From: Bacillus sp. NP157
Lineage (GTDB): Bacteria > Pseudomonadota > Gammaproteobacteria > Xanthomonadales > Rhodanobacteraceae
Reading direction: 5' to 3'
DNA length: 64,000 bases
Assembly (NCBI GenBank): GCA_018889975.1
Contig: CP076546.1
Span: 2,480,001 to 2,544,000 of the forward strand
Shown piece by piece: positions 45,376-64,000 of this stretch. Both the position numbers and the translations under genes were made by a program. Under the pieces are notes generated by a model. The model ran no database searches. It had not been told where the DNA came from and saw nothing but the letters and a program-made list of their open reading frames with translations. Each line of letters opens with the position of its first letter. Positions within the stretch are counted from its first letter, which is position 1.

Positions 45376-45538
45376 GGCATGTCCTTCCTCTGGCGGGAGG
45401 GCGATCCGAGGCCTCGCTTCCCTGGTGGGCGCCATCCTAGCTGGTTTGCGCGCGACGGCGTCGGATGGCTGGACGCACGGCGCCAATCGTCGTCCATCCT
45501 TGGCTATAGTGACGCCCAACCGGCTCGATACGGACATC

Positions 45539-48856: not shown

Positions 48857-50953
48857 TTACCGCGTGCTTGAGGCTGGACCCGTCCATTGCTTCAACCACG
48901 CATTCACCGTCTCGTGCCACTGCACGCTGTTCTGCGGCTTCAGCACCCAGTGGTTCTCATCCGGGAAGTGGAGCAGCTTGCTCGGGATGCCACGGCGCTG
49001 CAGCGCGGTGAACGCGCCCATGCCCTGGGTTTCCGGGATGCGGAAGTCCTTGCCACTGTGGATGACGAGCATCGGCACGCGCCAGTCCTTTACGTGGTTG
49101 ACCGGATTGAAGCGCTCGTAGTTTTCCGGATGGTCGTACTGCGTACCGCCGTTCTCGCGTTCTTCGAACCACAGTTCTTCGGTGTCGTAGTACATGGCGC
49201 GCGCGTCGAAGACACCGTCGTGGTCGACGAAGCACTTCCACGGCTGGTTCCAGTTACCGGCCATCCAGTAGACCATGTACCCGCCGTAGCTGGCACCGAG
49301 GGCGCACGCACGGCTGCCATCGAGGAAGCTGTACTTCTGCAGCGCGGCGCTCCAGCCGTCCTTCAGGTCTTCGAGCGGCTTGCCGCCCCAGTCACCCGAG
49401 ATCGCGTCGGTGAAGGCCTGGCCGTAACCGGTGGAACCGTGGAAGTTCACCGTGACCACGGCGAAGCCCTGGCCGGCGTAGGTTTGCGCGTTCCAGCGGT
49501 AGCTCCAGCTATTGGTCATCGCACCCTGCGGGCCGCCGTGGATGATGAAGGCGACCGGATAGGTCTTGCCCTTCTTGAAACCGACAGGCTTGACGACATA
49601 GCCCTGCACGGTTTCGTTGTTCCAGCCCTTGAAGGTGAAGAACTCCGGGTCACCCACCTGGGCGGCCTTCAGGCGCTTGGCGTTGTAGTGCGTGACCTGC
49701 TTGAGGCCCTTGCCCTTCGCGTCGGCCGTGTAGAGATCGTCCGGGCGCTTGAGGTCGTTGCGGGTGAGCAGGATCTTCCTGTCGCGCAGCGAGAAGCCGG
49801 TGACGGCACCGTCGGTCACCAGCATCGTGACCTTGCCGGTGGCGGCATCGATCGCGAACAGCGGATGCTGGCCGTTGTCGTCGGTGGTGGTGTAGAGCGT
49901 CTTGCCATCGGCAGACACCTGCAGGGCACCGGCGGAGCGATCCCACGACGCATCCACCTCGTGCTTCTGGCCGCTGGCCAGGTCCATGGCCCAGATGCCG
50001 AAACGGTCGGCTTCGGAGCCCGGCACCTTCATGGCCGTGTAGTACAGCGTCTTGCCATCGGGCGACACCAGCGGGTTCGCATCCCACGCCAGGTTGTCGG
50101 CGGTGAGGTTGGCCGGGTTGGCCGAGCCGTCGGCCGGCACGCTGTAGATATCGAAGTTGGTCGACCACGGTTCGCTAGTGCCGGCGATGCGCACGTCGAA
50201 GTACACCGTCTTGCCATCGGGCGAGAAGGTGAACTCGTCTTCGCTGCCTTCCGGCTTGCTCGGCACGTCGCCATCGATGCCCTTGCTCAGCAGCACCGGC
50301 TGCGAGGGCGCGCTGGCGTCGGCGATGAACAGCTGGTTGCGGCGGCCGTCGGCCCAGGTGTCCCAGTGGCGGACGAACAGCTTGTCGTAGACGGTGCCGG
50401 TGGACTTGTCCTTCTCGCGACCGTCCAGGCGCTCCTTCGTGCAGGCCAGGTCGGAGCAGTCGGTGAAGACCGCATAGCTCAGGAGCAGCTTGGTGCCATC
50501 CGGGGAGATCTTGTAGGCCTCGACGTCCAGCGGGCCGTCCGTGACCGCATCGCCCGAGCGGATCGTCAGGGCCAGGCCCTTGCCACCCTGGCCGGCGTCG
50601 AACGCCCGGTGCATGACCTGGGCGGTGCCGTCCTTCGCCGCGACGTAATAGATCGACTTGCCATCCGGGGCCCAGCGGGCGGACGAGCCCTTTTCCACGA
50701 CCTTGACCGGCTGCGGGGGCTTGTCCAGGTCCATGACATAAAGGGAGGTGACGCCCTTGTTCGCCGCGTAATCCGTGGCCCGGACCGCGAACAAGGCATA
50801 GCGGCCATCGGGGGACAGCTGCGGATCGCCCACCCGGTCCATCATGACTAGGTCGCGGATCGAGAAGGGGTGCGAGGCAGCGCTGTCTGCGTCGGCGGCC
50901 AGGACGGGGCCGGACGCAAGCGCGAGGGCCAGCGCGGCGAACAGTAGTTTCAT
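48857..50953 (-). CDS. S9-family peptidase (dipeptidyl/acylaminoacyl peptidase type)
   Basis: A 698-residue exported serine peptidase. Signal peptide MKLLFAALALALASGPVLAA leads to a WD40-like propeller (QLSPDGRYALFAV, RWAPDGKSIYYV, FTFSPDGKTVYF, PLVSPDGKTLYY repeats) and a C-terminal hydrolase domain. The nucleophile elbow is LGASYGGYMVYW; HSGKDFRIPE and FPDENHWVLKP hold the Asp and His. It degrades oligopeptides in the periplasm. AGGGAG lies ~8 nt before the ATG. Related in fold but not a close copy of the enzyme at 5732-7651. Confidence 0.92.
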   Translation of the reverse strand: MKLLFAALALALASGPVLAADADSAASHPFSIRDLVMMDRVGDPQLSPDGRYALFAVRATDYAANKGVTSLYVMDLDKPPQPVKVVEKGSSARWAPDGKSIYYVAAKDGTAQVMHRAFDAGQGGKGLALTIRSGDAVTDGPLDVEAYKISPDGTKLLLSYAVFTDCSDLACTKERLDGREKDKSTGTVYDKLFVRHWDTWADGRRNQLFIADASAPSQPVLLSKGIDGDVPSKPEGSEDEFTFSPDGKTVYFDVRIAGTSEPWSTNFDIYSVPADGSANPANLTADNLAWDANPLVSPDGKTLYYTAMKVPGSEADRFGIWAMDLASGQKHEVDASWDRSAGALQVSADGKTLYTTTDDNGQHPLFAIDAATGKVTMLVTDGAVTGFSLRDRKILLTRNDLKRPDDLYTADAKGKGLKQVTHYNAKRLKAAQVGDPEFFTFKGWNNETVQGYVVKPVGFKKGKTYPVAFIIHGGPQGAMTNSWSYRWNAQTYAGQGFAVVTVNFHGSTGYGQAFTDAISGDWGGKPLEDLKDGWSAALQKYSFLDGSRACALGASYGGYMVYWMAGNWNQPWKCFVDHDGVFDARAMYYDTEELWFEERENGGTQYDHPENYERFNPVNHVKDWRVPMLVIHSGKDFRIPETQGMGAFTALQRRGIPSKLLHFPDENHWVLKPQNSVQWHETVNAWLKQWTGPASSTR

Positions 50954-51095: not shown

Positions 51096-52406
51096 GTGAG
51101 CGAACGCCAGACGATCTGGGCGCGTGAGTGGTTCGTGCCCGCCTGCGTGGCCGTGCTCGCGCTTGCCATCCGTTGGTACTACGTCCATACCGCGGTGGTG
51201 GTAAACCCCATCCGGGGTGACGCGGTGCAGTACATGATCTACGCGATCAACCTGCTGGACCACGGCGTGTTCTCGCTCCAGCGCGATGCCGTCGCCCCCG
51301 TGGCCGATGGTTTCCGCGATCCCGGCTACCCGGTGTTCCTGGCCACCGCCATGGCGGTGTTCGGGCGAGGCCCGGCGTTCTACCTCGCCATGCTCGATGC
51401 CCAGGCGATCCTCGCGGGCCTGACGGTGGGCATGGGCGCATGGCTTACCCGGCGTTTCGTCGGGCTGGGGGCGAGCGTGGCCGCTGGCTTCGGGCTGGCT
51501 GTCTGGCCGCACCTGATCACGGCGAGTGGCTACCTGTTGAGTGAGACGCTGCTCGGCTTTCTCGTCATGTCCGGGCTGGCGCTGCTCGCCCTCGCGATCG
51601 ACCGGCGATCGACGCCGTTGGCCGCGACGTCCGGGCTGGTGTTCGCCGCCACCGCATTGACCAACGCCGTACTTCTACCGCTCTTGCCTGTGTTTGCCCT
51701 TGTCGCGGCATGGAAGGATCCGGGCCGCAGGAGGCTGTGGGCCGCCCTCGCCCTGGCCGCCTTCCTCCCTTGCGCGGCATGGCTCGGCCGCAACGCTACG
51801 CTGGATGCGCCGCCGGGCGATAACCGGGTCATGATGAATTTCGTGCAGGGCTCGTGGCCGTCGTACCACGCGGCCTGGCGGGACGCCTTCATCCGCCAGG
51901 ACCCTGCGGGCACGGCCGAACTCGCCCTGATCGATACCGAATATCGCCGCATGCTGGCCGATCCGCACAGCGGATTCGGCGCGGTGGTCGAACGCCTGCG
52001 CCAGACGCCGGCGGAAAGCCTCGGCTGGTACGCGAGCAAGCCCTCGGAACTGTGGGGCTGGACCATCGGGATCGGCGCGGGGGACATCTATGTGTTCCCG
52101 ACCCAGCAATCGCCGCTGGCCGGACGCGGAATACTCCCCGTCGTGACGGGCCTTTGTTACGCGCTGACACCCTTGCTCGCCCTGCTGGCGCTCGCGGGAG
52201 CCATCGCCGCGCTCGTCGGCTGGCGCGCGTGCCACCCGGTGCTCTGGCTGATGGTGATCATGCTGCTTTTCGTCACCGCGGTGTTCACCGTGCTCCAGGC
52301 GGATGCCCGGTATGCCACGCCGTATCGATGCGTGGAATGGCTGCTTGCCGTATATGCACTGCATCGGTTCGCCGCCTTCTGGCGCCGCAAGCGCCGTGCA
52401 ACGTGA
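51096..52406 (+). CDS. GT-C type membrane glycosyltransferase (ArnT/PMT-like)
   Basis: A 436-residue polytopic protein (~10 helices) of the GT-C/PMT type. NPIRGDAVQYMIYAINLL holds an acidic residue in the first periplasmic loop, DGFRDPGYPVFLA is the R-x-P-G-Y/L-P motif typical of GT39/ArnT-like enzymes, and GYLLSETLLGFLVMSG follows. Such enzymes transfer a sugar from polyprenyl phosphate to lipid, glycan or protein in the periplasm. It starts at GTG 51096 (VSERQTIWAREW). It lies directly upstream of the two pilin genes, so pilin or cell-surface glycan is a plausible acceptor; this is inference. Confidence 0.75.
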   Translation: MSERQTIWAREWFVPACVAVLALAIRWYYVHTAVVVNPIRGDAVQYMIYAINLLDHGVFSLQRDAVAPVADGFRDPGYPVFLATAMAVFGRGPAFYLAMLDAQAILAGLTVGMGAWLTRRFVGLGASVAAGFGLAVWPHLITASGYLLSETLLGFLVMSGLALLALAIDRRSTPLAATSGLVFAATALTNAVLLPLLPVFALVAAWKDPGRRRLWAALALAAFLPCAAWLGRNATLDAPPGDNRVMMNFVQGSWPSYHAAWRDAFIRQDPAGTAELALIDTEYRRMLADPHSGFGAVVERLRQTPAESLGWYASKPSELWGWTIGIGAGDIYVFPTQQSPLAGRGILPVVTGLCYALTPLLALLALAGAIAALVGWRACHPVLWLMVIMLLFVTAVFTVLQADARYATPYRCVEWLLAVYALHRFAAFWRRKRRAT

Positions 52407-52450
52407 TGCCGGTCACACCTTGCCGGCAAGCCATTGCCGCCGCTGACCCG

Positions 52451-52466
52451 TGGTACGAATGTTGCT
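52451..52466 (+). promoter_or_regulatory. Sigma-54 promoter of the first pilin gene
   Basis: TGGTACGAATGTTGCT matches the -24/-12 consensus (TGGCACG, four bases, TTGCW) with one change, and the GG and GC doublets are exactly 12 bp apart. The transcript would begin near 52477, 24 nt before the pilin ATG, which rules out earlier in-frame starts. Confidence 0.8.
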
Positions 52467-52500
52467 GAACAGGTCCGTCACCTTCCAGGCCCTGAGCGCC

Positions 52501-52938
52501 ATGCCCATCTCGCACCGATCCCGCGGCTTCACCCTGATCGAACTCATGATTGTCGTGGCCATCATCGCGATCCTGGCCGCGATCGCCATTCCCCAGTACC
52601 GGAATTACCTGATCAAGGCGCAGGTCACCGAAGGGCTCGAACTGGCCACGGGCAGCAAGACGGCGGTCTGGGATTATTTCGCCATGACCGGGCGTTTTCC
52701 TGCGAACAATGCTTCGGCAGGCCTGATTTCCGATTCGTCGATCGCCGGCCGCTACGTGTCCAGCGTGAAGGTCACCTCGGGTGTCATCCAGGTGACCTAT
52801 TCGGGACCGCAGGCGAATACCGCCCTGGCGGGAGGCACGCTCAAGCTCTCCCCCGTCGACCAGAGCGGCAGTATCAGTTGGGCTTGCAAGCCGGTCGCGA
52901 TCGACACCCGCTTCCTACCGACCGTTTGCCGCAGCTGA
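52501..52938 (+). CDS. Type IV major-pilin-like protein (first of two)
   Basis: A 145-residue type IVa pilin. The 9-residue leader MPISHRSRG is cut before FTLIELMIVVAIIAILAAIA, with Glu5 and the standard hydrophobic spine (IPQYRNYLIKAQVTEGL). The C-terminal disulfide loop is WACKPVAIDTRFLPTVC, and the protein ends in Ser (VCRS). In Pseudomonas a C-terminal pilin Ser can be glycosylated by TfpO, though no TfpO homologue is visible here. Its mature core is clearly paralogous to the second pilin. It is driven by its own sigma-54 promoter. The ribosome binding site is only fair (CCAGG). Confidence 0.9.
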   Translation: MPISHRSRGFTLIELMIVVAIIAILAAIAIPQYRNYLIKAQVTEGLELATGSKTAVWDYFAMTGRFPANNASAGLISDSSIAGRYVSSVKVTSGVIQVTYSGPQANTALAGGTLKLSPVDQSGSISWACKPVAIDTRFLPTVCRS

Positions 52939-52950
52939 GCATGACCATTT

Positions 52951-52979
52951 GCGTCACCATGTGACACTACGCGTCACAC
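52951..52979. promoter_or_regulatory. Repeated GTCAC half-sites upstream of pilA (candidate PilR sites)
   Basis: GTCAC at 52953-52957, GTGAC at 52961-52965 and GTCAC at 52973-52977 form two overlapping inverted repeats about 125 bp upstream of the pilA -24/-12 promoter, the usual place for a sigma-54 activator. P. aeruginosa PilR binds TGTC-containing sites, and GTGTCAC occurs here on the minus strand. Assignment to PilR is inference. Confidence 0.5.
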
Positions 52980-53091
52980 AAAGTAGTCGGTAAAATTCAG
53001 CAACATACGATCCACGAACGACCTTGCCTCGCAGGCGTGACCAGCGGCACAATTCGCTTGCCGGTTATATGGCGGAATACGCACCATCGAG

Positions 53092-53108
53092 TTGGCACGC
53101 TGTATGCA
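53092..53108 (+). promoter_or_regulatory. Sigma-54 promoter of pilA
   Basis: TTGGCACGCTGTATGCA matches the -24/-12 consensus with TGGCACG exact and ATGC for TTGC; GG and GC are 12 bp apart. The transcript would start near 53119, leaving a ~129-nt leader that contains GC-rich hairpins (around 53158-53193) and the palindrome GGTTAGCTAACC (53214-53225). Confidence 0.85.
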
Positions 53109-53247
53109 CTCGATATAGCGAGCTTCCTGGACGTTCCTGACCACGATTCGTGTGAAGGGGGGACCGGCCCTTCCTAGGGGGTCCGGTACCGGGGCTCAGG
53201 GGGACACCCAATCGGTTAGCTAACCAATTCCACTAACAGGAACTGTC

Positions 53248-53700
53248 ATGAAGAACGTGCAGAAAGGCTTCACCCTGATCGAACTGATGATCGTCGTCGC
53301 GATCATCGCGATCCTCGCCGCCATCGCCATCCCGCAGTACCAGAACTACCTGATCAAGACCCAGGTCTCGGAAGGCGTGAACCTGGCTGACGGCGCCAAG
53401 ACGGCTGTGTCGGAGTACTACCAGAACTACGGCAAGTACCCGCTGAACAACGCTTCGGCTGGCCTGTCGCCGACCGGTTCGATCAAGGGCAAGTACGTGG
53501 CCTCGCTGACGCAGACCAGCGGCGTCATCTACGTCACCTTCAACGCGACCGAATCCAATACGAAGATCCAGGGCAAGAAGCTCGCCCTCTCGCCGTTCGA
53601 CAACGGCGGCGCGATCCAGTGGAACTGCCGTTCGGATGCCGGCGGCGCCACCAAGACCGACGTGCCGGACGTGTACCTGCCGACCGTTTGCCGCAAGTAA
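53248..53700 (+). CDS. pilA: PilA, type IV major pilin
   Basis: A 150-residue type IVa pilin. Leader MKNVQKG is followed by FTLIELMIVVAIIAILAAIA and IPQYQNYLIKTQVSEGV; Glu5 is present. The C-terminal disulfide is formed by WNC and TVC (Cys residues near 127 and 148), ending VCRK. AGGA lies 6 nt before the ATG. The codon choice is highly biased (AAG, GGC, CTG, ACC), as expected for an abundant protein. It has a sigma-54 promoter, a long leader and a strong terminator, and likely makes the main pilus fibre. Confidence 0.95.
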   Translation: MKNVQKGFTLIELMIVVAIIAILAAIAIPQYQNYLIKTQVSEGVNLADGAKTAVSEYYQNYGKYPLNNASAGLSPTGSIKGKYVASLTQTSGVIYVTFNATESNTKIQGKKLALSPFDNGGAIQWNCRSDAGGATKTDVPDVYLPTVCRK

Positions 53701-53720
53701 TTCCAGTCTGACTGGATAAG

Positions 53721-53747
53721 AAGGGGGCCCATTGTGGCCCCCTTTTT
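53721..53747 (+). terminator. pilA terminator, abutting the next start codon
   Basis: GGGGGCC (53723-53729) pairs with GGCCCCC (53736-53742), loop CATTGT, then TTTTT (53743-53747). The ATG of the next gene begins at 53749, so read-through transcripts carry this hairpin in place of a ribosome binding site. Confidence 0.9.
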
Positions 53748-53748
53748 C

Positions 53749-55743
53749 ATGTCGACGACGCAACGCCCGCTACTTCGGCCCCTGCTACTGGCGCTTGTCC
53801 TTGGCGCCCTGCTGCTGGCCGCCTATTTCCCGGGTTTGCGCGGTGGCTTCGTCTTCGACGATTTCGCCACCCTGCCTGCACTCGGGGCGACCGGCCCCGT
53901 GCACGATGGCGCATCCCTCGCGCGTTACCTCACCGCAGGTACCGCGGATCCCACCGGTCGCCCGCTGGCCATGGCCAGCTTCCTGCTCAACGGGCAGGAC
54001 TGGCCTACCGATCCCTATCCCTTCAAGCTGACCAACCTCGTTATCCACGTTGCCAACGCCTTGCTGCTTGGCATGCTGTTGCTCAGGCTGGAACGCAGGC
54101 TCGGCTCGCCTGCCCCGATCGCGTCGCGTAGCGCGTGGCTCGGAGCGGCGCTCTGGTCGTTGCATCCGTTCCTGGTTTCCACCGTGCTCTACGTCGTTCA
54201 GCGCGAAGCGATGCTTGCCGCGACATGTGCGTTCCTTGCGCTCCACGCATGGCTGACGGCGCGCGATGCGTTCTCGCAGCCCGGCCGTAGGGGCATTGCG
54301 TGGCTTTATTTCGGTTTCGGTGGCGCCGTCCTAGCCGGGCTCGGCTGCAAGGCGAACGCGGCAGTGATTCCGCTGCTTGCCCTGGCGATCGATGGCGTGC
54401 TGCCGACACCGCCTTCCGTGGCCGCATTGGCGTACCGGCGTCACCGGTTCGTCGTGCTCGTGCTGCCGGCGGCCGCGCTGATCCTTGGCCTGCTCTGGAT
54501 GGCGCTTCCGCCGTCGTCCGGAACCGTGCTGCCAGAACGCGGGTGGTCGATTGGCCAGCGACTGCTGACCGAGCCCCGCGTCATCGGCGATTACCTTGCA
54601 CGGCTCTGGTTCGTCCAGTCACCTGGCGGGGCGTTCTTCCACGACCAACTGACGGCGAGCCGCTCGCTGCTCGATCCCTGGCAGACCGCTGCATGCATCG
54701 CGCTGTGCGCGGCACTCATCGCCGTCGCCTTCGTGGTGCGCCGGCGCGCCCCCGCGCTTTCGATCGCGATCCTGTTCTATTTCGCCGGCCATCTGCTCGA
54801 GTCCACCTCGGTGCCGCTGGAGCTTTATTTCGAACACCGGAATTACCTGCCCGCGGCCTTGATGTTCTGGCCGCTGGCGCGCGTGGTGTCGCGGATACCC
54901 TATGCGTGGGCGCGTCTTGTCATCCCCGCGTTGATGGCCGCGTTCCTTGCGGTCGCGACGTGGCTGCAGGCTTCGCTGTGGGCCGACCCGCTTGCCCAGG
55001 CGGAAGTGTGGGCGAGCCTGCAGCCCGGGTCGGCGCGGGCCCAGGCCAACGCGATTTCGACGGAACTGTCGTCGGGGCGCCTGGGTCGCGCCCTCCTCCG
55101 GGCGGATGCCGCTTCCGCAGCCTTCCCGAACGAACCGCAGATCGCCATCAATCGACTCGATGCACATTGTGCCGCCGGCGCCGCCACATCGCACGATGTC
55201 GATTTTGCTGCCACGGCGTTCAGGACAGCGCTTCGTGATCCCGGGTCGCTAACCACGCATTACATCGAAAGCGCCATTGCCGCGCTGCAAACCTCGCATT
55301 GCGCGGCACTGGACGCACCGGCGATTGGAAAGCTCATCGAGGCCCTGGGAATGAATCCAAAGGCCAGGGCCCTCCCCGGCCGCAGGCAGGACGTGGTCCA
55401 TTTGCGAGGCGCGCTGGCCCTTCGACAAGGCGACGTGGCCACCGCGGAATCCCGTTTCGCCGAAGCCCTTGCTGAAGACCCGTCGCCACGGGTGGCACTC
55501 AATGAAGCGGCCTTGCTCGGCCGCGCGGGACAGCCAGGGGCAGGCTTGCGCCTGCTCGACCGGTTCGATCGGATGCCACCGCCCAAGCCGCTCCGGCCCC
55601 GGGATGGCATTGCGTGGGTACGCGAACGCACGTTCGTCGCCCAGGGGTTCTGGACTGGCGAGTTGCAAGCGATGCGACGGTCCCTCCGGGCTGCCCAGGA
55701 AACGGGCGGTACTGGGATAACACCCGGGGTAACGTTAAAGTGA
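53749..55743 (+). CDS. TMTC-like GT-C membrane protein with TPR-like tail (first paralogue)
   Basis: A 664-residue polytopic protein. After the first helix a periplasmic loop carries the GT-C acidic motif GGFVFDDFATLPA; then PTGRPLAMASFLLN, LTNLVIHVANALLLGMLL, VLYVVQREAMLAATCAFLAL and PLELYFEHRNYLPAALM. About 10-11 helices fill residues 8-~410, and the C-terminal ~240 residues are helical repeats (TPR-like, e.g. LRGALALRQGDVATAESRFAEAL). The architecture matches TMTC-type O-glycosyltransferases and their bacterial TPR relatives. No Shine-Dalgarno is visible because the pilA terminator lies directly upstream. A role in pilin glycosylation is inferred from position. Confidence 0.75.
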   Translation: MSTTQRPLLRPLLLALVLGALLLAAYFPGLRGGFVFDDFATLPALGATGPVHDGASLARYLTAGTADPTGRPLAMASFLLNGQDWPTDPYPFKLTNLVIHVANALLLGMLLLRLERRLGSPAPIASRSAWLGAALWSLHPFLVSTVLYVVQREAMLAATCAFLALHAWLTARDAFSQPGRRGIAWLYFGFGGAVLAGLGCKANAAVIPLLALAIDGVLPTPPSVAALAYRRHRFVVLVLPAAALILGLLWMALPPSSGTVLPERGWSIGQRLLTEPRVIGDYLARLWFVQSPGGAFFHDQLTASRSLLDPWQTAACIALCAALIAVAFVVRRRAPALSIAILFYFAGHLLESTSVPLELYFEHRNYLPAALMFWPLARVVSRIPYAWARLVIPALMAAFLAVATWLQASLWADPLAQAEVWASLQPGSARAQANAISTELSSGRLGRALLRADAASAAFPNEPQIAINRLDAHCAAGAATSHDVDFAATAFRTALRDPGSLTTHYIESAIAALQTSHCAALDAPAIGKLIEALGMNPKARALPGRRQDVVHLRGALALRQGDVATAESRFAEALAEDPSPRVALNEAALLGRAGQPGAGLRLLDRFDRMPPPKPLRPRDGIAWVRERTFVAQGFWTGELQAMRRSLRAAQETGGTGITPGVTLK

Positions 55744-55828
55744 TCGCCTGTACGCCCAGGCAACCCACCGCCTCCTGGCAGCCTGCCAATCTCCCGTGAG
55801 CGACGCCCCGCATGACCCAAGAAGAAGC

Positions 55829-57790
55829 ATGACCATGCCGCGAATCCTGGCCGCCCTGTGGTCGCGCCCCGCTTTCTGGATGGCCCTGGCCATCGCCGCC
55901 ACCGTCGCGATCTACGCCCAGGGTACCCATGGCGCGTATCTCTTCGACGACTTTCCCAACATCGTCGACAACGACGGAATCCACATAAGCGACTGGTCCG
56001 TCCCTTCGCTCGTAACGGCAGCGCTTTCATCGCCGTCGAGCGAGCTGAAACGGCCCCTTGCCTCGCTTACGTTCGCCCTGAATTTCCTCATCAGTGGCCT
56101 GGATCCGACAGCCATGAAGATCACGAACATCGTGATCCATGTGCTCAACGGCGCCGTGCTGTTCGCCCTGCTCCGCCTGCTCTTCGCAGGCGCCTCGCGT
56201 CCCGTCACGTCGAGGGACGGCGCGAACGCCGCGCTGGTCGCAAGCATCTGGCTTGTATTGCCGATCAACGTTACCGCCGTGCTGTACATCGTCCAGCGCA
56301 TGGAAAGCCTGGCAAACCTCTTCGTGCTGCTGGCCTTGTTGGGTTACGTGATCGGGCGTCGTCGCATGTCGTCCGGACGACCGGGGTTCGCGCTGGCGAC
56401 CGCCAGCCTCATCGCTGGCACGGCGATCGGCGCGCTCGCCAAGGAAACGGCAATCCTTGCGCCGCTCTATGCGATGTTCATCGAGTGGTTCGTATTCCGC
56501 TGGCGCGCATCGCCGGCCGAAGGCGACAGGATATGCCGAAGGACGGCGTGGCTGTTCGTCGTCATCCTTGTCATCCCGTTCATCGTAGGCGCAGCGCGGT
56601 TCGGTCCGGCCATGTTCGCGGACGCGACATGGGCGCCGCGCAGCTTCACCATGCCTCAGCGGCTGTGGAGCGAAGCACGCATCGTCACGCACTACATCAC
56701 GTGGAGCTTGCTGCCGCTTCCGACCGACCTCTCGTTCTACCACGATGATTTCGTCCTATCGACGGGCTGGCTTACGCCGTGGACGACGCTGGCGTGCATC
56801 GGGTTCCTCGCCCTGCTCGCCGTGGTCGCCGTTCTCGCCCGTAAGCGCTACCCGCTCGCTTCGCTCGGCATCGCCTGGTACCTCGGCTGCCACGCGCTCA
56901 CTGCAACCATCATCCCGCTCGAACTGATCTACGAGCACCGCAACTACTTCGCAAGCATCGCACTGGTGCTCATCGTCGTGGCGATGCTTCGGCGCTCGGC
57001 GAATCCCGCACGTGAGGATGAAGAACCCGTCCTCGGCTCCGCGTTGCTGCTCGGCGTCATTGGTGTCTATGCGGCATTCCTGACCACGCTCACGGCCGTG
57101 CGCTGGGATTCACCCTTGTCGCTGGCGCGCGAGCTGGCCGTGAGAGCGCCCGCGTCCCCCCGCGCGCAGTACGAACTCGGACGCGCTTACGTCATCGCGA
57201 CCCACTATCGTCCCGACTCTCCCCTTGTAAAGCCGACCTACGATGTCCTGGAACAGGCGGCGGCACTCCCGGGGTCGTCGACGCTCCCAGAGCAGGCGCT
57301 TATTTTCTTTGCAGCCAAACTGCATCAGCCCATCAAGGACGCGTGGTGGGACTCGATGGAAGCCAAGCTGCGCCGCGGCCCCATAACCATCGAAGACGAG
57401 AGCGCGATCATGTCGCTTTCCAGCTGCGATATCGAACAGTCATGCGACCTTGATAACCAGCGGATGCTGCGACTCTTCCTTGCCGCCCTCGCCCATCCAC
57501 GGCCGCGCGCCCGCCTGATCGCGTCGTATGGCGACTTCGCGTGGCGTTCCCTCGAGGACAAGCAGCTCGGCTACGAGATGACGCGGCATGCCGCCGAAGT
57601 CGAGCCTGCCGAGCCCGCATATCACATCTCTACCCTGCGCCTTGCGGCAGCAATGGGCGATGCGCCCGAGGTCAAGAAGCAATGGGATGCTCTCCAGCGA
57701 CTGAACGTCGGAAACCGCCTGGGTAGCGACCTCGCGGCCCTGGCGCCAGCCGTCCGCGAAGCAGCCGCGAGCACGGCCCGTTCCCGTTGA
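55829..57790 (+). CDS. TMTC-like GT-C membrane protein with helical-repeat tail (second paralogue)
   Basis: A 653-residue paralogue of the preceding gene. Shared motifs in the same order: GAYLFDDFPNIVDN (acidic GT-C motif), KRPLASLTFALN, ITNIVIHVLNGAVLFALL, VLYIVQRMESLANLFVLLAL, and PLELIYEHRNYFASIAL. The C-terminal region (~420-653) is soluble and helical (AQYELGRAYVIATHY, and so on), with a Cys-containing insert SSCDIEQSCD not present in the first copy. I start it at ATG 55829; GTG 55796 is in frame but has no ribosome binding site. The tandem copies likely differ in donor or acceptor. The next gene starts 58 bp later. Confidence 0.75.
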   Translation: MTMPRILAALWSRPAFWMALAIAATVAIYAQGTHGAYLFDDFPNIVDNDGIHISDWSVPSLVTAALSSPSSELKRPLASLTFALNFLISGLDPTAMKITNIVIHVLNGAVLFALLRLLFAGASRPVTSRDGANAALVASIWLVLPINVTAVLYIVQRMESLANLFVLLALLGYVIGRRRMSSGRPGFALATASLIAGTAIGALAKETAILAPLYAMFIEWFVFRWRASPAEGDRICRRTAWLFVVILVIPFIVGAARFGPAMFADATWAPRSFTMPQRLWSEARIVTHYITWSLLPLPTDLSFYHDDFVLSTGWLTPWTTLACIGFLALLAVVAVLARKRYPLASLGIAWYLGCHALTATIIPLELIYEHRNYFASIALVLIVVAMLRRSANPAREDEEPVLGSALLLGVIGVYAAFLTTLTAVRWDSPLSLARELAVRAPASPRAQYELGRAYVIATHYRPDSPLVKPTYDVLEQAAALPGSSTLPEQALIFFAAKLHQPIKDAWWDSMEAKLRRGPITIEDESAIMSLSSCDIEQSCDLDNQRMLRLFLAALAHPRPRARLIASYGDFAWRSLEDKQLGYEMTRHAAEVEPAEPAYHISTLRLAAAMGDAPEVKKQWDALQRLNVGNRLGSDLAALAPAVREAAASTARSR

Positions 57791-57848
57791 GGCATGCTGC
57801 GCTGGTAGCCCCACGTACTAATCCAGAGATAGAGAGAGACTGCCCACG

Positions 57849-59024
57849 ATGAACGCTACGCCTGCCCGGCTCGCAATCCATGGCGCCTCCCCGCGATTCC
57901 CAGAGCCCATCCATGTAGGGCGTCCCAACATAGGCGACCGCGCGAAGTTCCACGCCCTCATCGATGGCATGCTGGATCGGAAGTGGCTCACGAACGCTGG
58001 CCCCCTGGTCGAGGAATTCGAAAAGCGCGTCGCCGCGGACCTGGGCGTCGACCATTGTGTCGCTATCTGTAACGGCACCGTGGCATTGGAGATCGCTATC
58101 CGGGCGCTGGGCCTGAGTGGCGAAGTCATCGTCCCTTCCTGGACCTTCATCGCAACGGCACATGCGCTCGCGTGGCAGGGCATCAAGCCGGTTTTCGCCG
58201 ACATCGATGCGTCGACCCATAACCTTTCGCCCGCGGCCGTCGAAGCCGCCATCACGCCGGCGACCACCGGCATCATTGGCGTCCACCTTTGGGGGCGGCC
58301 GGCTCCGATCGAAGAGCTCACCGACATCGCTTCGCGGCATCGACTGAAGCTGATGTTCGATGCCGCCCATGGGTACCGGTGCACGCACAAGGGTCGACGC
58401 ATCGGTGCATTCGGTGAATGCGAAGTCCTGAGCTTCCACGCCACGAAGGTGTTCAATACGCTCGAAGGGGGCGCCATCGTCACCAACGATGCTCACCTCG
58501 CCCAACGCATGCGCTTGATGCGCAACTTCGGGTTCGCCGGCTACGACAACGTTATTCATCCGGGAACGAACGGCAAGATGGTCGAGGCGAGCGCGGCCAT
58601 GGGGCTCGTGAACCTGGAGTCGCTCGATGACTTCATTGAAGCGAACCGTGTTCGCTATTCGATCTACCGTGAACGCCTCGCCCACGTGCCGGGAATCGAG
58701 CTCGTAGAGTACGACGATGGCGAACAGAACAACTACCACTACGTGGTGGCCAGCGTGCATCCGCCGTCCAGGGCCACCCGCGATGAACTGATCGACGTCC
58801 TGCATGCCGAAAACGTCCTGGCCCGGAAGTACTTCTGGCCAGGCTGCCACGCCATGCAGCCCTATGCCGGACAACTCCACGCACCCATGTACAGCACTGA
58901 GGCGGTGGCGGCCCGGAATATCGTCCTTCCGAATGGACCGTCGCTGGGCGTCGACGATGTCCACGCAGTCTGCGACATCATCGAGATGGTCTGCACGCAC
59001 GGCATGGCTGGCGTGGAAGGTTGA
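57849..59024 (+). CDS. DegT/DnrJ/EryC1-family sugar aminotransferase
   Basis: A 391-residue PLP-dependent aminotransferase acting on nucleotide-linked keto sugars. The Schiff-base lysine is Lys200 in SFHATKVFNTLEGGA; DAAHG (171-175) contacts the cofactor and VPSWTFIATAHALAWQG is the family block. It resembles the VioA/QdtB group that makes 3- or 4-amino-dideoxy sugars, but the sugar cannot be fixed from sequence. GAGAGAG lies upstream of the ATG. Followed after 6 bp by a NeuD/PglD-type acetyltransferase, which supports an N-acylated amino sugar as product. Confidence 0.92.
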   Translation: MNATPARLAIHGASPRFPEPIHVGRPNIGDRAKFHALIDGMLDRKWLTNAGPLVEEFEKRVAADLGVDHCVAICNGTVALEIAIRALGLSGEVIVPSWTFIATAHALAWQGIKPVFADIDASTHNLSPAAVEAAITPATTGIIGVHLWGRPAPIEELTDIASRHRLKLMFDAAHGYRCTHKGRRIGAFGECEVLSFHATKVFNTLEGGAIVTNDAHLAQRMRLMRNFGFAGYDNVIHPGTNGKMVEASAAMGLVNLESLDDFIEANRVRYSIYRERLAHVPGIELVEYDDGEQNNYHYVVASVHPPSRATRDELIDVLHAENVLARKYFWPGCHAMQPYAGQLHAPMYSTEAVAARNIVLPNGPSLGVDDVHAVCDIIEMVCTHGMAGVEG

Positions 59025-59030
59025 CGAACC

Positions 59031-59687
59031 ATGGCCGCGTCGACATCCCCGCAGGAACGCCTCGCCATCTTTGGGACGGGCGGCCACGCCCGTGAGGCGG
59101 CATGGATCGCAGAATCACTTGGCTACGCCCGTGCGAATCTCGTATTCGTCGTCGATGCAGCGCATCGCACGCAATCCCGGGTCAACGGCATCGAAGTAAT
59201 CGAGGCAACCCCCGAAGCCTGCGCTGGTTGGCCATGCGTGGTCGCCGTAGGTGATCCTCGCGCACGCGCCTCGATTCGCGAGCGCTGCACGGGGCTCGGG
59301 ATGCTGGCGGCACGGCTGGTCGCACCGTCGTGCGCCTTACACGACTCCGTAGTGCTGGGCGATGGCGTGATACTCGCCCCCGGCTCAGTGATCACCGTGA
59401 ACGTATCGCTCGGCAACGACGTCCACGTTAACGTTGGCGCATCCGTGTCGCACGACGTCCGCATCGGCCGATTCACCACAGTGTCACCCGGTGCCCGCAT
59501 AGCGGGGCACGTACATATCGGCGAGTCGGTCTTCGTCGGCGTGGGCGCATCCATCATCAATGGCACGCCTGACGAGCCGCTGGAGATCGGCGATGGCGCG
59601 ATCATCGCGGCAGGCGCGTGCGTCATCGCGCCCGTGGCCCGTGGCTCGACGGTCATGGGCGTGCCGGCCCGGCCCAGGCACCCGTGA
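59031..59687 (+). CDS. NeuD/PglD-type sugar acetyltransferase
   Basis: A 218-residue enzyme. The N-terminal Rossmann-like domain (LAIFGTGGHAREAAWIAES) binds the nucleotide sugar, and the C-terminal left-handed beta-helix shows hexapeptide repeats (LGDGVILAPGSVITVNVSLG). Catalytic His is H141 in GASVSHDVRIG. Homologues acetylate the amino group of UDP-4-amino sugars (PglD, PerB). It follows the aminotransferase by 6 bp, and its TGA overlaps the GTG of the flippase gene (GTGA). Confidence 0.9.
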   Translation: MAASTSPQERLAIFGTGGHAREAAWIAESLGYARANLVFVVDAAHRTQSRVNGIEVIEATPEACAGWPCVVAVGDPRARASIRERCTGLGMLAARLVAPSCALHDSVVLGDGVILAPGSVITVNVSLGNDVHVNVGASVSHDVRIGRFTTVSPGARIAGHVHIGESVFVGVGASIINGTPDEPLEIGDGAIIAAGACVIAPVARGSTVMGVPARPRHP

Positions 59688-61156
59688 ACACAGCCCACGG
59701 CAACCGGGTGCGCAGCGCGGCGCGCTGGAGTGGCCTGGAGATCGCGCTGCGCTATGCATTCCAGCTCGTTGTCATGGTTGGCCTCGCACGGCTCGTCGAC
59801 CCGTCCGCCTTTGGTGCCGTCGCGATGGTCACCGTGTTCACGGCGCTAGGCACGGTGTTCATCGATTCGGGCACGGGCATGGCGCTGATCCAAAAACAGC
59901 GCTCCACGCCAGGCGAGGAAACGTCGACGTTCGTCCTCAACCTTGCGATTTCATTCGCTGCTTGCGGTCTGCTCATCGCACTCGCACCGACCATCGCGCG
60001 GTTTTACGATCGCCCCGACCTTGAGGCGATCTGCATCGCCATGTCGTTCGTGTTTCCGTTGAACGGCCTTGCCGTCGTTCCGGACGCCATGCTGACCCAG
60101 CAAATGCGGTTCGACCTGCGCACCCGGGTTGAAATCGCAAGCTCGCTCACCTCGGGACTGGTCGCGCTTGGCGCCGCAGCAGCCCACCTGGGTGCCTGGG
60201 CGCTCGTCTGGCAGGCACTCTCGTCGATCGGCTCGCGGACGCTCATGCTGTACGTGCTCTCTGGCTGGCGTCCGCGCGGCAGGCCGTCGCTCGCCGACAC
60301 TCACACGGTGACGTCGTTCGGCGGCTATATGCTCGTCGCCGGCCTCATTGATACCGCATACACGCGGGTGCAGGCGCTGCTTATCGGCAAGCATTTTTCC
60401 GCCGGCGATGTCGGACAGTACACGCTGGCGCAGAACACGCAGCAGGCACCTGCATCGTTCGTTGCCGCCATCCTCAACCGGCTGGGGTTGCCGCTCCTCT
60501 CGTCCATCCGCGACGACCACAAGGCCACGCGTACCGTGCTTGAAGCGGGCATGCAGATGGGCCTGTTTGGCTTTATTCCGGTCATGGCGACACTAGCCGT
60601 GCTCGCCGTCCCCATGGTGGACGTGGTCTACGGAGCTCGTTGGACCGAGGCAGGCCAGGTGCTCGCCATCCTCGCGCTCGGCTCGATTCCGTGGCCGGCA
60701 CATGTACTGAACCTCGTCGCCATGAATTCCCAGGGACGGCCGCGTCTCGTCCTCAACGTGGAAGTGGTGAAGAAATCCTTTGCCGTGATCCTCTTGCTGA
60801 CGGCAGCACCCCATGGACTCCTGGCCATCGCCTGGTCGACCGTCATCGCAAGCCTCTTTTCGTTCTTTCTCAACGCCTGGTTCGTGGGACGTCTGCTTGG
60901 CTACGGAATAAACCCCCAGGTCAAAGTCATGGCATGGTCGAGCGTCCCGGCCCTGGGCGCCGCCGCCGCCGGCTGGTGTTGCGTGCAATACATCGGCAAT
61001 GGCGCCCTCGGGCTGGCTGTCGCGTGGCTCGCGTCGGCACTGGCCACGCTCGCCATCGGAGTCGTTTGCCGACATCCGGCGCTTCCTGCCTTGCTGCGAC
61101 TGTTACCTGGGCACCGCCCTGGCCCTTCGACGGAAACCGACCATGTCGATCGATGA
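59684..61156 (+). CDS. Oligosaccharide flippase (Wzx-like, MOP superfamily)
   Basis: A 490-residue protein with about 12-14 membrane helices. It begins VNTAHGNRVRSAARWSGLEI at GTG 59684; LARLVDPSAFGAVAMVTVF and DSGTGMALIQKQ are typical of the polysaccharide biosynthesis/Wzx-like family (the WzxC/LPS flippase branch). It would move lipid-linked glycan across the inner membrane. It is coupled to the upstream acetyltransferase by GTGA and overlaps the next GT by 14 nt. Confidence 0.9.
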   Translation: MNTAHGNRVRSAARWSGLEIALRYAFQLVVMVGLARLVDPSAFGAVAMVTVFTALGTVFIDSGTGMALIQKQRSTPGEETSTFVLNLAISFAACGLLIALAPTIARFYDRPDLEAICIAMSFVFPLNGLAVVPDAMLTQQMRFDLRTRVEIASSLTSGLVALGAAAAHLGAWALVWQALSSIGSRTLMLYVLSGWRPRGRPSLADTHTVTSFGGYMLVAGLIDTAYTRVQALLIGKHFSAGDVGQYTLAQNTQQAPASFVAAILNRLGLPLLSSIRDDHKATRTVLEAGMQMGLFGFIPVMATLAVLAVPMVDVVYGARWTEAGQVLAILALGSIPWPAHVLNLVAMNSQGRPRLVLNVEVVKKSFAVILLLTAAPHGLLAIAWSTVIASLFSFFLNAWFVGRLLGYGINPQVKVMAWSSVPALGAAAAGWCCVQYIGNGALGLAVAWLASALATLAIGVVCRHPALPALLRLLPGHRPGPSTETDHVDR

Positions 61157-62282
61157 GAACCATTCATTGCGCGTCCTGCTGACGAGCACGTCCTACCCGT
61201 CAAGCGTCGATGACTGGCGCGGCGTCTTCATCCGGCACATGGTCGCGGCGCTTGCTCGCCGCGATGATCTCGCCCTCTCGGTGTGGGCGCCCCCCGGCCC
61301 TCTCCCGGCGAATGCAGCTGCCGCGACAAGCGCCGTGGAAAGGCGCATGCTCGAACAGCTCATGGCGGCCGGCGGTGTCGCCCACCTGCTTCGCAACCAC
61401 CGCCTCAGAGGCGCACGCGCGGCCCTGGCGTTGTTGCGTGGTCTCCGGCGCGTCTATCGCGCCACGCCCGTCGACGTCTACCACGTCAACTGGCTGCAGT
61501 GCCTGCTTCCACTGCCGCAGGATGGCGTGCCTTTACTGGTGACCGTGCTGGGCAACGACATGAAGTTGCTCCAGTTACCGGGCATGACCGCGCTGGTTCG
61601 CCATGCCATGCGTGGACGCCGAGTCACCATCAGCCCCAATGCCACGTGGATGCAAGCGCCGCTGCAGGAACGCTTTGGCGACATGGCGGACATCCAGCCG
61701 GTACCTTTCGGTATCGGACCGCATTGGTATGCCCTTGAGCGGACGCCTTCGCCGGACACCTCATGGCTGCTGGTCAGCCGCCTGACGAGGCGCAAGCTCG
61801 GCCCCATCTTCACGTGGGGCCAGGGCTTGTTCGGCCCGGGAACCGGCCGGACGCTCGACCTGCTTGGACCCATGCAGGAGGACATCGACATTCCCTCATG
61901 GGTGAACTACCACGGCATGGCGACGCCGGATGCCCTTCACCAGCACTGGTTTCCCCAGGCTACCGGGTTGTTGTCGCTGAGCGAGCATGACGAAGGCCGC
62001 CCGCAGGTCATGCTCGAGGCCATGGCGTCGGGCCTGCCGGTGGTCGCGTCCCGCCTGGCCGCCCATGTGGACCTGATTGCGGATGGCATCGATGGCATCA
62101 TCGTCGATGCGCCCGATGACTTCGCACGGGCCCTTGGCGTGCTGGGAGACCCTGTGGTGAACAACGCTTACGGCGCGGCGGCGCGCGACAGGATGCAGTC
62201 GCAGTTTGGTACGTGGGACGACTGCGCGGCACGCTACGTTGCGCACTACCGCCGCATGCGCGGGGAGGTCCCGCATGGCTGA
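61143..62282 (+). CDS. GT4-family glycosyltransferase
   Basis: A 379-residue GT-B glycosyltransferase. The N-terminal domain begins LRVLLTSTSYPSSVDDWRGVF and contains LLVTVLGNDMKLLQLPG; the C-terminal domain has the E-x7-E motif in SEHDEGRPQVMLEAMASGLP, typical of GT4 retaining enzymes that use nucleotide sugars in the cytosol. The start ATG 61143 lies inside the end of the flippase gene, so the genes are coupled. Donor and acceptor are unknown. Confidence 0.9.
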   Translation: MSIDENHSLRVLLTSTSYPSSVDDWRGVFIRHMVAALARRDDLALSVWAPPGPLPANAAAATSAVERRMLEQLMAAGGVAHLLRNHRLRGARAALALLRGLRRVYRATPVDVYHVNWLQCLLPLPQDGVPLLVTVLGNDMKLLQLPGMTALVRHAMRGRRVTISPNATWMQAPLQERFGDMADIQPVPFGIGPHWYALERTPSPDTSWLLVSRLTRRKLGPIFTWGQGLFGPGTGRTLDLLGPMQEDIDIPSWVNYHGMATPDALHQHWFPQATGLLSLSEHDEGRPQVMLEAMASGLPVVASRLAAHVDLIADGIDGIIVDAPDDFARALGVLGDPVVNNAYGAAARDRMQSQFGTWDDCAARYVAHYRRMRGEVPHG

Positions 62283-63177
62283 CGTTCTCGTTGTCGGAGC
62301 CAACGGCTTCATCGGGTCACATTTGCTGGCTCGCGTCCGCGCGGTCGGTCACGATGTCCGCGCCCTATGCCGGACGCAACCCATGCCTGGCGTGCCGTGG
62401 GCACGGATGGACGATGTCGCGACGAACGATCAGCTTGCCGCGGCGCTCGCCGGCGTCTCGACGGTGATCTGGGCTGCCGGTGCAAGCACCCCCGCGTCCA
62501 CCGCCCGTCGGCCGGCTGACGAAGTCGAACGCAACCTTGTTCCGCTCGTACGCTTGCTTGAATGCACCGCCAACGACCACCCCTTGCGCATGGTCTACCT
62601 GTCGACGGGCGGGGCCATCTATGGAGACATCGAAGGCCTCGCGCGCGAAAACATGGTCGTGGAACCCAAGGGGTACTACAGCGCGGGAAAGGCCGCTGCG
62701 GAGGCCTTCCTGTCCGCGTGGTCGCATCTGGGCGCCCACGAGGTCACCATCCTGCGGCCATCGAACGTGTACGGGCCGGGGCAACCGTACCGCCCAGGCT
62801 TTGGCATCATTCCCACGGCCTTCCACGCCATCCGCCATGAGGGCTCGGTCGTGGTCCGCGGCGATGGCGAAGCGGTCCGCGACTACCTCTACATCGACGA
62901 CCTTGCGAACCTGTGCGAGCGCATCCTGGCGAGGCCGCGCACGCCCGGCTGCCACACGTTCAACGCATCGAGTGCGCAGGGCACGTCACTGAACGAGCTG
63001 CTTTCGGTCGTCGAAGAAGTGACGGGGCATGAGGTGGCGCGTCGCGCCGAGCCGGCCACGGCATTCGACGTCAAGCGCATCGTGCCCGACAACCACGCGG
63101 CAACGCGCGCCTTCGGATGGCACGTCGCCACGCCGCTCCATGAGGGCGTGCGCCGGGCCTGGGAGGCATTTCGTTGA
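62275..63177 (+). CDS. NAD-dependent epimerase/dehydratase (extended SDR)
   Basis: A 300-residue nucleotide-sugar modifying enzyme. The N-terminal NAD-binding motif is VVGANGFIGSHLLA, and the catalytic pair is in GYYSAGKAAAE (Y-x-x-x-K). VYLSTGGAIYG has the catalytic Ser/Thr. It resembles UDP-glucose 4-epimerase or GDP/dTDP-sugar reductases; the substrate is not set. GGGGAGG precedes its ATG 62275 by 6 nt; it overlaps the GT4 stop by 8 nt and the GT2 start (TTGA) at its end. Confidence 0.88.
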   Translation: MADVLVVGANGFIGSHLLARVRAVGHDVRALCRTQPMPGVPWARMDDVATNDQLAAALAGVSTVIWAAGASTPASTARRPADEVERNLVPLVRLLECTANDHPLRMVYLSTGGAIYGDIEGLARENMVVEPKGYYSAGKAAAEAFLSAWSHLGAHEVTILRPSNVYGPGQPYRPGFGIIPTAFHAIRHEGSVVVRGDGEAVRDYLYIDDLANLCERILARPRTPGCHTFNASSAQGTSLNELLSVVEEVTGHEVARRAEPATAFDVKRIVPDNHAATRAFGWHVATPLHEGVRRAWEAFR

Positions 63178-64000
63178 GCGAGGGAGGGATCCTCTGCAGC
63201 GTGTGCATCGCCAACTACAACGGCGAGTCCCTGCTCGACACCTGCCTGCGCTCGGTACTCGACCAAGTCATCGATGGCGGCGTGGAAATCATCGTCCACG
63301 ACGACGCGTCCAGTGATCGCTCGCTCGAGGTGCTTGCCACGTATCCATCGGTGCGAGTCATCCGAAGCGATGCGAACGTTGGGTTTTGCGAGTCGAATAA
63401 CCGCATGGTGGCCATCAGCACCGGCCGGTTCGTGCTACTTCTGAACAACGATGCGGCCCTGGAGCCCGGCGCCCTTGCCGCACTTGCGGCGGCCGCGGCG
63501 CAATCGACCCATGGCGACATCCTGACCCTGCCCCAGCTTGACTGGGAATCCAGTCAGCTGGTCGACCTGGGATGCCAGCTCGATCCTTTCATGAACCCCG
63601 TGCCGGTCACGCAGGGCGCAGGCAGCGTGGCCATGGTCATCGGCGCGTGCATGTGGATGCCGCGAACGCTGTGGGACAAGATCGGCGGGTTTCCCAGCTG
63701 GATCGAATCCATCGCCGAAGACATGTACGTATGCTGCGCGGCGCGATACCTCGGGCACGACGTGCGCTGCATCGACGGGCCGGCTTACCGCCACATGCAG
63801 GGCAAGAGCTTCGGCGGCAATCGCGTCGGCAACGGCGGCCTCGCAACGACCTATCGGCGCCGGGCACTCAGCGAGCGCAACAAGACATGCCTTCTGGCAA
63901 TATTCACGCCCACGCCGTGGATGCTTCCCGTCCTCGCCGTCCATGCAACGACGATGCTTATCGAGGGCCTGGCGGTGAGCCTCGCACGACGCACCTTACG
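63174..64000 (+). CDS. GT2-family glycosyltransferase (partial, runs off the window)
   Basis: The first ~275 residues of a GT-A inverting glycosyltransferase. It starts at TTG (63174-63176), overlapping the epimerase TGA, with GGGAGG 7 nt upstream. The sequence reads CSVCIANYNGESLLDTCLRS, then EIIVHDDASSDRSLEVL (nucleotide-binding), FVLLLNNDAALEPGAL (metal-binding D-x-D equivalent NND) and ESIAEDMYVCCAARYLG (ED catalytic region). It resembles rhamnosyltransferase-like GT2 proteins with a possible C-terminal membrane segment (PWMLPVLAVHATTMLIEGLA). The end is not in the window. Confidence 0.88.
   Translation, partial: MSEGGILCSVCIANYNGESLLDTCLRSVLDQVIDGGVEIIVHDDASSDRSLEVLATYPSVRVIRSDANVGFCESNNRMVAISTGRFVLLLNNDAALEPGALAALAAAAAQSTHGDILTLPQLDWESSQLVDLGCQLDPFMNPVPVTQGAGSVAMVIGACMWMPRTLWDKIGGFPSWIESIAEDMYVCCAARYLGHDVRCIDGPAYRHMQGKSFGGNRVGNGGLATTYRRRALSERNKTCLLAIFTPTPWMLPVLAVHATTMLIEGLAVSLARRTL

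Follow-up and report, generated by a model that had tools for sequence, protein, structure and literature searches.

To our knowledge, few families of enzymes that glycosylate pilins are known. Pilin glycosylation has been reported to guard against pilus phages and to mask pili from antibodies (PMC11841053, PMC12369383). In Pseudomonas paraeruginosa, group IV pilins are modified by TfpW, a GT-C D-arabinofuranosyltransferase encoded after pilA (PMC11841053, PMC12369383). TfpO, TfpM, PglS and PglL carry Wzy_C/WaaL-type domains (PMC12645811). Three-component systems composed of a polyprenyl-phosphate synthase, a flippase and a GT-C protein decorate O antigen (PMC11127046). In humans, TMTC enzymes attach sugars to cell-adhesion proteins. 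The TMTC proteins are marked by the motifs DD and SHKSYRP (EL1), RxD (EL2), KE(T/Q)xxT (EL3), DW (EL4), PxxP (TM9) and ERxxY (EL5) (PMC7801869). This text concerns a pilin locus at the right end of a 64,000-nucleotide stretch of DNA from Bacillus sp. NP157, bases 2480001-2544000 of a complete 4,875,246-base contig; the whole stretch is referred to as the window. The locus encodes two type IV pilins and a TMTC-like pair of polytopic proteins, GTC_B and GTC_C, whose family is called GTC here.

With a probability of about 0.72, the locus encodes a three-component pilin glycosylation system made up of an undecaprenyl-phosphate (Und-P) sugar synthase, a flippase and a GT-C protein with TPR. The evidence that carries this reading was observed directly in gene order, in linkage and co-occurrence across genomes, in superfamily membership by profile and in motif conservation. 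GTC is part of a real and conserved module linked to pilins, and its GT-C family appears to be undescribed. In the excerpts of open-licence literature, no description was found of the family beside pilins or of its class-wide pairing with a DPMS-like gene. The mechanism class is not new, since TfpW shows that GT-C enzymes can act on pilins.

Gene order and linkage to pilin genes

GTC_A, pilin1, pilin2, GTC_B, GTC_C and six sugar genes follow one another on one strand, and the ends of the six sugar genes overlap or almost touch. An earlier reading of the same DNA, made from its letters alone (the sequence-only reading), had named these open reading frames (ORFs). All were found again at the same coordinates, both pilins were confirmed by PF00114, and the coupled sugar set was recovered in the proposed order (aminotransferase, acetyltransferase, flippase, GT4, epimerase, GT2) by ORFs and family searches. 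The features are as follows.

51096..52406, plus strand: GTC_A, polytopic PMT_2-type GT-C candidate, accessory (GTG start at 51096; profile comparison)
52451..52466, plus strand: putative promoter ahead of pilin1, matching the sigma-54 consensus with one mismatch
52501..52938, plus strand: pilin1, ending in CRS (PF00114; start 52501 chosen by the authors within the open frame)
53093..53108, plus strand: putative promoter ahead of pilin2, matching the sigma-54 consensus with one mismatch
53248..53700, plus strand: pilin2, ending in CRK (PF00114)
53719..53747, plus strand: G+C-rich hairpin with U-run, putative intrinsic terminator or attenuator (folding of 53701-53760)
53749..55743, plus strand: GTC_B, TMTC-like polytopic protein with C-terminal TPR; K206-A207-N208 (motif alignment, profiles)
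55829..57790, plus strand: GTC_C, TMTC-like polytopic protein, C-terminal TPR in relatives; K216-E217-T218 (motif alignment, profiles)
57849..59024, plus strand: candidate sugar aminotransferase, nearest DesI (dTDP-4-keto-6-deoxyglucose aminotransferase) (TIGR04427, PF01041)
59031..59687, plus strand: NeuD/PglB/VioB-type sugar acetyltransferase (TIGR03570 above cut-off)
59684..61156, plus strand: Wzx-type flippase (PF13440; best NCBIfam NF058658 'O-glycosylation flippase', below its cut-off)
61143..62282, plus strand: GT4 glycosyltransferase (family search)
62275..63177, plus strand: SDR sugar epimerase/dehydratase (family search)
63174..64000, plus strand: GT2 glycosyltransferase, ending 187 bases beyond the window (L005:175-1188; family search)
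L005:2925-3827, minus strand: DPMS-like GT2 (P0019), adjoining pilB; two C-terminal hydrophobic stretches by eye

Past the window, the other strand encodes a methyltransferase, a second GT2 and the DPMS-like GT2, and then PilB (TIGR02538 above cut-off), PilC and PilD. The sugar genes stand inside a type IV pilus locus. They are not the separate O-antigen cluster that the sequence-only reading had held possible, because they are placed between pilA and pilB.

The linkage was followed in two samples. The closest relatives of the locus among named records are Luteibacter and other Rhodanobacteraceae (Gammaproteobacteria), within the best 80 of 475; these 80 loci make up the Lysobacterales-centred set (genome_contigs). 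The class set comes from 274 genomes drawn from the class, and regions were fetched for 80 of the 81 GTC genomes other than the own genome, with G034 (broken copy) left out. Pilins were recognised from an N-terminal motif and their length rather than from PF00114, and regions with less than 1 kb upstream (4 of the Lysobacterales-centred loci, 13 of the 80 class regions) stand outside the denominators. A same-strand pilin gene lies no more than 1 kb upstream of GTC in 64/76 Lysobacterales-centred loci and in 51/67 class-wide regions; an earlier count with stop-to-stop frames gave 63/76 and 50/66. The TMTC-like genes are thus not usually far from pilins, which the sequence-only reading had named as an outcome that would refute it, and the pilin-GTC linkage is not chance. 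Outside the class, a pilin stands directly upstream of GTC in 11/16 regions (L234-L249; 15 genomes, with 12 regions from two families).

Co-occurrence was counted with thresholds of E<=1e-20 for GTC and E<=1e-60 for P0019 orthologues. Among the 274 class genomes, 82 carry GTC, 194 a PF00114 pilin and 76 a P0019 orthologue. GTC and the P0019 orthologue occur together in 74 genomes and are both absent from 190, with 8 + 2 carrying only one (Fisher 7e-55). For GTC and the PF00114 pilin, the corresponding counts are 78 with both, 4 with GTC only, 116 with the pilin only and 76 with neither (Fisher 3.5e-10). These P values are indicative only, because the genomes are related and few candidates per genome were scored.

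The DPMS-like gene is also linked in position. It was found within 1 kb downstream of GTC on the same strand in 53/69 class regions, in a count of DPMS adjacency that tolerates overlap of stop-to-stop frames. The commonest minimal cassette in these regions consists of one or more pilins, one or two GTC genes and DPMS, with pilB-C-D further along in some. In the Lysobacterales-centred set, 11 loci reach pilB, and DPMS lies beside it as in the window in 4/11. Control pilin loci from GTC-negative genomes show DPMS in 0/20 and pilB-C-D in view in 9/20; these 20 were chosen by the authors among the listed pilin hits and include L208, which has an incomplete GTC where its contig ends, and L207, without a motif-detected pilin. 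In G034 (C1:1405150-1407689), adjacent GTC and DPMS genes both carry in-frame stops and the two pilins beside them are intact, which suggests that GTC and DPMS degenerated jointly. At L128:1967-4321, GTC fragments in both orientations separate two GTC genes and point to a further copy that is broken or rearranged.

A scan of the 64 kb window for matches to the sigma-54 consensus TGGCACGNNNNTTGCW found just two with one mismatch (52451-52466 and 53093-53108), each right before a pilin. At two or fewer mismatches, 10 matches were observed vs 13 expected, so the support for sigma-54 comes from position and not from number. Pilin2 is perhaps the major pilin. Between pilin2 and GTC_B, the 60-base stretch 53701-53760 has a folding z of -3.9, and 0/200 shuffles were as strong; the hairpin within them was not listed by a terminator scan of the window. 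As a putative intrinsic terminator or attenuator, it fits the terminators reported for pilin-accessory cassettes (PMC11841053). Modification of a C-terminal Ser as by TfpO was considered and set aside: pilin1 ends in Ser, yet a last-residue Ser is not enriched in GTC-linked pilins (3/60 in the class, 10/111 in the Lysobacterales-centred set, vs 6/24 controls). The serine plus threonine share of pilin ectodomains is 0.225 in each GTC set and 0.201 in controls.

Superfamily and conserved residues of GTC_B and GTC_C

The own genome encodes two GTC family members, GTC_B and GTC_C. In these two proteins, the membrane part has no Pfam match and no NCBIfam cut-off was reached. The sole Pfam model matching the membrane part of GTC_B members is PMT, weakly and in 2/52. 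The class-wide alignment of the membrane part was compared with 30 presumed PMT (PF02366) proteins, taken as the most hydrophobic frames over PF02366 matches. Here hhalign gave a probability of 93.1% (E 3.1e-7, 186 columns), and the DD of GTC falls within one column of the acidic pair of the PF02366 family. Controls gave 0.2% for the reversed query, 0.4% for Wzx (8 rows), 0.2% for OafA (11 rows) and 1.2% for PilC (15 rows). The alignment of GTC_C alone reached 87.4%. By profile comparison, the GTC family belongs to the PMT/GT-C superfamily.

Motifs were counted in 244 proteins (111 B-like, 133 C-like), defined as frames of >560 residues scoring >200 bits. The acidic motif of the first loop is nearly invariant, with D42 in 110/111 B-like and 132/133 C-like proteins and D43 in 108/111 and 132/133 (242 and 240 overall). 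The R of RP is present in 243, QR in 244 and the K of the KE motif (EL3) in 244/244. In EL5, an E-x-R-x-Y variant of ERxxY is found (E 241/244, R 244/244, Y 243/244). The Glu of the KE motif differs between the two types, being present in 132/133 C-like proteins and 36/111 B-like proteins; the window proteins read KAN in GTC_B and KET in GTC_C. Hydropathy shows 10 membrane stretches per alignment and 11 combined, with the conserved residues in matching loops. These loops would lie on the periplasmic side.

Two features of the TMTC proteins were not recovered. In EL4, D is present in 229/244 proteins and is followed mostly by Q, D, G, N or H, not by W. PF08409 (DUF1736) has no match in GTC_B (P0004) or GTC_C (P0005), and for other members it does not appear in the family listings, which gave 25 out of 51 for each alignment; a search of 150 phylum genomes gave no match, with controls likewise silent, and is uninformative. 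GTC_B and GTC_C would work like TMTC proteins and are not filed as TMTC, because DW is missing and DUF1736 was not found.

The C-terminal part points to TPR. At E<=1, TPR_14 was found in 45/52 GTC_B members and TPR_19 in 36/45 GTC_C members. The match is weak in the window GTC_B (E 0.027), and the window GTC_C itself has no TPR match. A PDB sequence search (best 60 of 71 for GTC_B and of 98 for GTC_C) aligned the C-terminal part only, mostly with TPR or helical-repeat structures, and none aligned to the membrane part.

A tree by a quick method was built from 142 rows, namely all class-sample proteins of the motif set and a random third or so of the two-copy genome_contigs loci; 54/139 inner branches are open. 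In the GTC_B clade of Lysobacterales and Nevskia, 24/24 rows read KAN, KPN or KGN, and the paired GTC_C rows keep KE. PMT enzymes function as dimers (PMC7759382). From these motifs, GTC_C, with KE intact, appears the likelier catalytic half, and GTC_B may be an altered partner.

The sequence-only reading had grouped three GT-C proteins around the pilins. All three are polytopic, but GTC_A is a separate PMT_2-type protein, without profile similarity to the pair in their alignments A1 and A2 (hhalign 1.9% and 12.2%; 38.9% for the wide alignment). GTC_A reaches 97.2% against the PMT family. PMT_2 was found in 11/16 of its family members (E<=1), with 0 Pfam matches for the window GTC_A itself. It was found upstream in only part of the relatives, and it is present twice upstream of pilins in L031 and L038.

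The sugar genes and the DPMS-like partner

P0019 lies nearest to the NCBIfam models AglJ, PpgS, dolichyl-phosphate hexose transferase and ArnC, all below equivalog cut-offs, and among solved structures to ArnC, dolichol monophosphate mannose synthase and sll0501. Because every one of these cut-offs is missed, its activity is inferred: P0019 is polyprenyl-phosphate sugar synthase-like, and it would supply the synthase of a three-component system.

The aminotransferase scores 493 bits against TIGR04427 (DesI), under the cut-off of 650, and RmlB is encoded elsewhere in the genome, at 2890668. Together with the NeuD-type acetyltransferase, it would presumably make dTDP-4-acetamido-4,6-dideoxyglucose (dTDP-Qui4NAc), which is probably the cargo sugar. 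The locus has no initiating transferase, since the genome's one PF02397 protein sits ~1 Mb away.

The glycan content varies among relatives. The GT4-epimerase-GT2 trio was found in 10/80 loci, an aminotransferase homologue (E<=1e-40) in 16/80 and both in 2/80; many loci end early, and of the 16 homologues 9 are >=60% identical and some are distant DegT-type proteins. Two loci with other cargo were examined (10 proteins), both from the 13 loci, described below, that show GTC and a divergent DPMS. One (L009) has two GT4 genes, and the other (L029) has a CDP-glycerol-type transferase and an IspD-like cytidylyltransferase, which may indicate decoration of the alditol-phosphate type. In the same pil interval of L029 (14894-16531 and 17082-18488), this IspD-like cytidylyltransferase and an SDR protein share one open frame beside the CDP-glycerol-type transferase. 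As far as seen, the borders of the locus are constant and its glycan content is exchangeable.

It is possible, if on the doubtful side, that roles are split at this locus. In such an arrangement, which is compatible with three-component pilin glycosylation, GTC_B/GTC_C and DPMS would add one sugar to the pilin. The six-gene cluster would make either a longer glycan destined for that site or something separate, and another enzyme, GTC_A or a Wzy_C protein encoded far off, would transfer it. Among 13 loci with GTC and a divergent DPMS in view, the interval between the two contains no gene of the six in 12/13 and the aminotransferase in 1/13. GTC_A is itself PMT-type and adjoins the pilins, and Wzx suggests a lipid-linked oligosaccharide. 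However, GTC_A is not in view in L011, L024 and L027, which carry the GT4-epimerase-GT2 trio. No Wzy_C was found among the locus proteins, in line with the sequence-only reading, which had seen no such pilin oligosaccharyltransferase. The genome's three Wzy_C proteins are encoded at least ~1 Mb from the locus and show neither PglL_A nor Wzy_C_2 (E<=0.01), and PglL was accordingly not found in the own genome.

Other genes stand to the left of the cassette. In the window this is a protein that the authors name DPP/prolyl-oligopeptidase-like (48857-50953, minus strand). Rhodanobacteraceae loci often have it on the left of their pilin cassette, and these neighbours are mostly 68-87% identical. To the left of the window protein are two membrane proteins of the acyltransferase-3 type (45272-47437, plus strand; 47478-48785, minus strand), which we name OafA-like from their sequence. 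OafA-like genes also occur near pilins in L018, L026, L032, L037, L039, L052 and L054.

Proposed pathway, alternatives and known systems

Three-component pilin glycosylation would proceed as follows. Judged by its family, the DPMS-like GT2 would charge undecaprenyl phosphate with a sugar; here the aminotransferase and acetyltransferase would probably supply dTDP-4-acetamido-4,6-dideoxyglucose, and the GT4 and GT2 enzymes would lengthen the glycan. A flippase (Wzx here) would then turn the lipid-linked sugar to the periplasm. Homology and linkage suggest that GTC_B/GTC_C would transfer the sugar to a Ser/Thr or other residue of the pilin. For this step the pair would use DD in the first periplasmic loop together with residues from loops further on (K-E, D and E-x-R-x-Y), and the periplasmic TPR would hold the pilin. 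The sequence-only reading had suggested that the TMTC-like pair could be a different kind of pilin glycosylation enzyme; with the pilin linkage and a polyprenyl-phosphate sugar synthase-like partner, this appears the best reading.

Several observations weigh against the proposed system. An upstream pilin within 1 kb is missing in 16/67 class regions and 12/76 loci, and 4/82 GTC genomes have no PF00114 match. DPMS adjoins GTC in only 2/70 loci of the Lysobacterales-centred set, is in view in 2/16 regions outside the class, and is not beside pilB in 7/11 loci (Woeseiaceae, Zhongshania, Sedimenticola and unassigned). Absences are uncertain because no more than 4 (GTC) and 8 (P0019) first-look candidates were scored per genome. 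At the protein level, the alignment of GTC_B alone reaches 60.9% against PMT, GTC_B is without the Glu of the KE motif, and the similarity of GTC_A to A1 and A2 is low (1.9%, 12.2%).

An unlikely alternative is that the GT-C pair acts with DPMS to modify a polysaccharide of the cell surface (lipopolysaccharide or exopolysaccharide) and that pilin proximity marks a glycan hot spot. Three-component systems with an Und-P donor classically modify O antigen (PMC11127046), and the cargo includes Wzx, GT4 and GT2, with the CDP-glycerol-type transferase in L029 and OafA-like acyltransferases nearby. However, many class-wide regions show just GTC and DPMS by the pilin, among the families looked for, and none of the six sugar genes is linked to GTC as tightly as the pilin is. 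The pilin linkage recurs outside the class, and the C-terminal TPR suggests a protein acceptor. It is highly improbable that GTC_B/GTC_C are TPR-bearing pilus assembly factors, acting without modification like the TfpY/TfpZ accessory proteins: Pseudomonas group III and V pilin accessory cassettes do encode non-modifying proteins (PMC11841053) and the KE Glu is lost in the GTC_B clade of Lysobacterales and Nevskia, but DD, R, QR, K and E-x-R-x-Y are each kept in at least 240 of the 244 proteins, GTC co-occurs with a polyprenyl-phosphate sugar synthase-like gene, and the pair has PMT homology.

Three-component pilin glycosylation can be extended tentatively, at somewhat less than even odds, to a general proposal. 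A widespread and undescribed bacterial family of TMTC-like enzymes, served by its own polyprenyl-phosphate sugar synthase, would glycosylate type IV pilins, as a counterpart of human O-mannosylation by DPM1-TMTC. In Lysobacterales, an active (KE) and an altered (KA) paralogue would form an obligate pair, and the cargo would be exchangeable within constant borders of the pil locus. One GTC family is present in 82/274 sampled class genomes, mostly beside a pilin. It would serve as a compact model of the TMTC enzymes of humans and could yield new protein-glycosylating enzymes.

How does this locus compare with the known systems? TfpW is likewise a GT-C protein encoded downstream of pilA, with a pilin acceptor (proposed here for GTC). 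It differs in using D-arabinofuranose from a separate island, whereas GTC is TPR-fused and TMTC-like with a DPMS-type GT2. TapV of Ralstonia was set aside as a FimV-type protein, and passages of a Legionella pilin paper offered nothing of relevance. TfpO/PilO, TfpM, PglS and PglL resemble the system in standing beside or acting on type IV pilins, but their Wzy_C/WaaL-type domain was found in no locus protein here. The GtrA/GtrB/Gtr and GT136 pentofuranose systems would share the combination of Und-P-sugar synthase, flippase and GT-C protein (PMC11127046); their acceptor is O antigen, whereas the acceptor gene linked to GTC is a pilin. Human TMTC1-4, which are O-mannosyltransferases with a dolichyl-phosphate-mannose donor, share DD, parts of the other loop motifs, the C-terminal TPR and, likely, a polyprenyl-phosphate sugar synthase as the source of the donor (PMC7801869). 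In contrast, the GTC window proteins have no PF08409 match or DW, carry E-x-R-x-Y rather than ERxxY, match RxD by its Arg only, and are proposed to act on a pilin.

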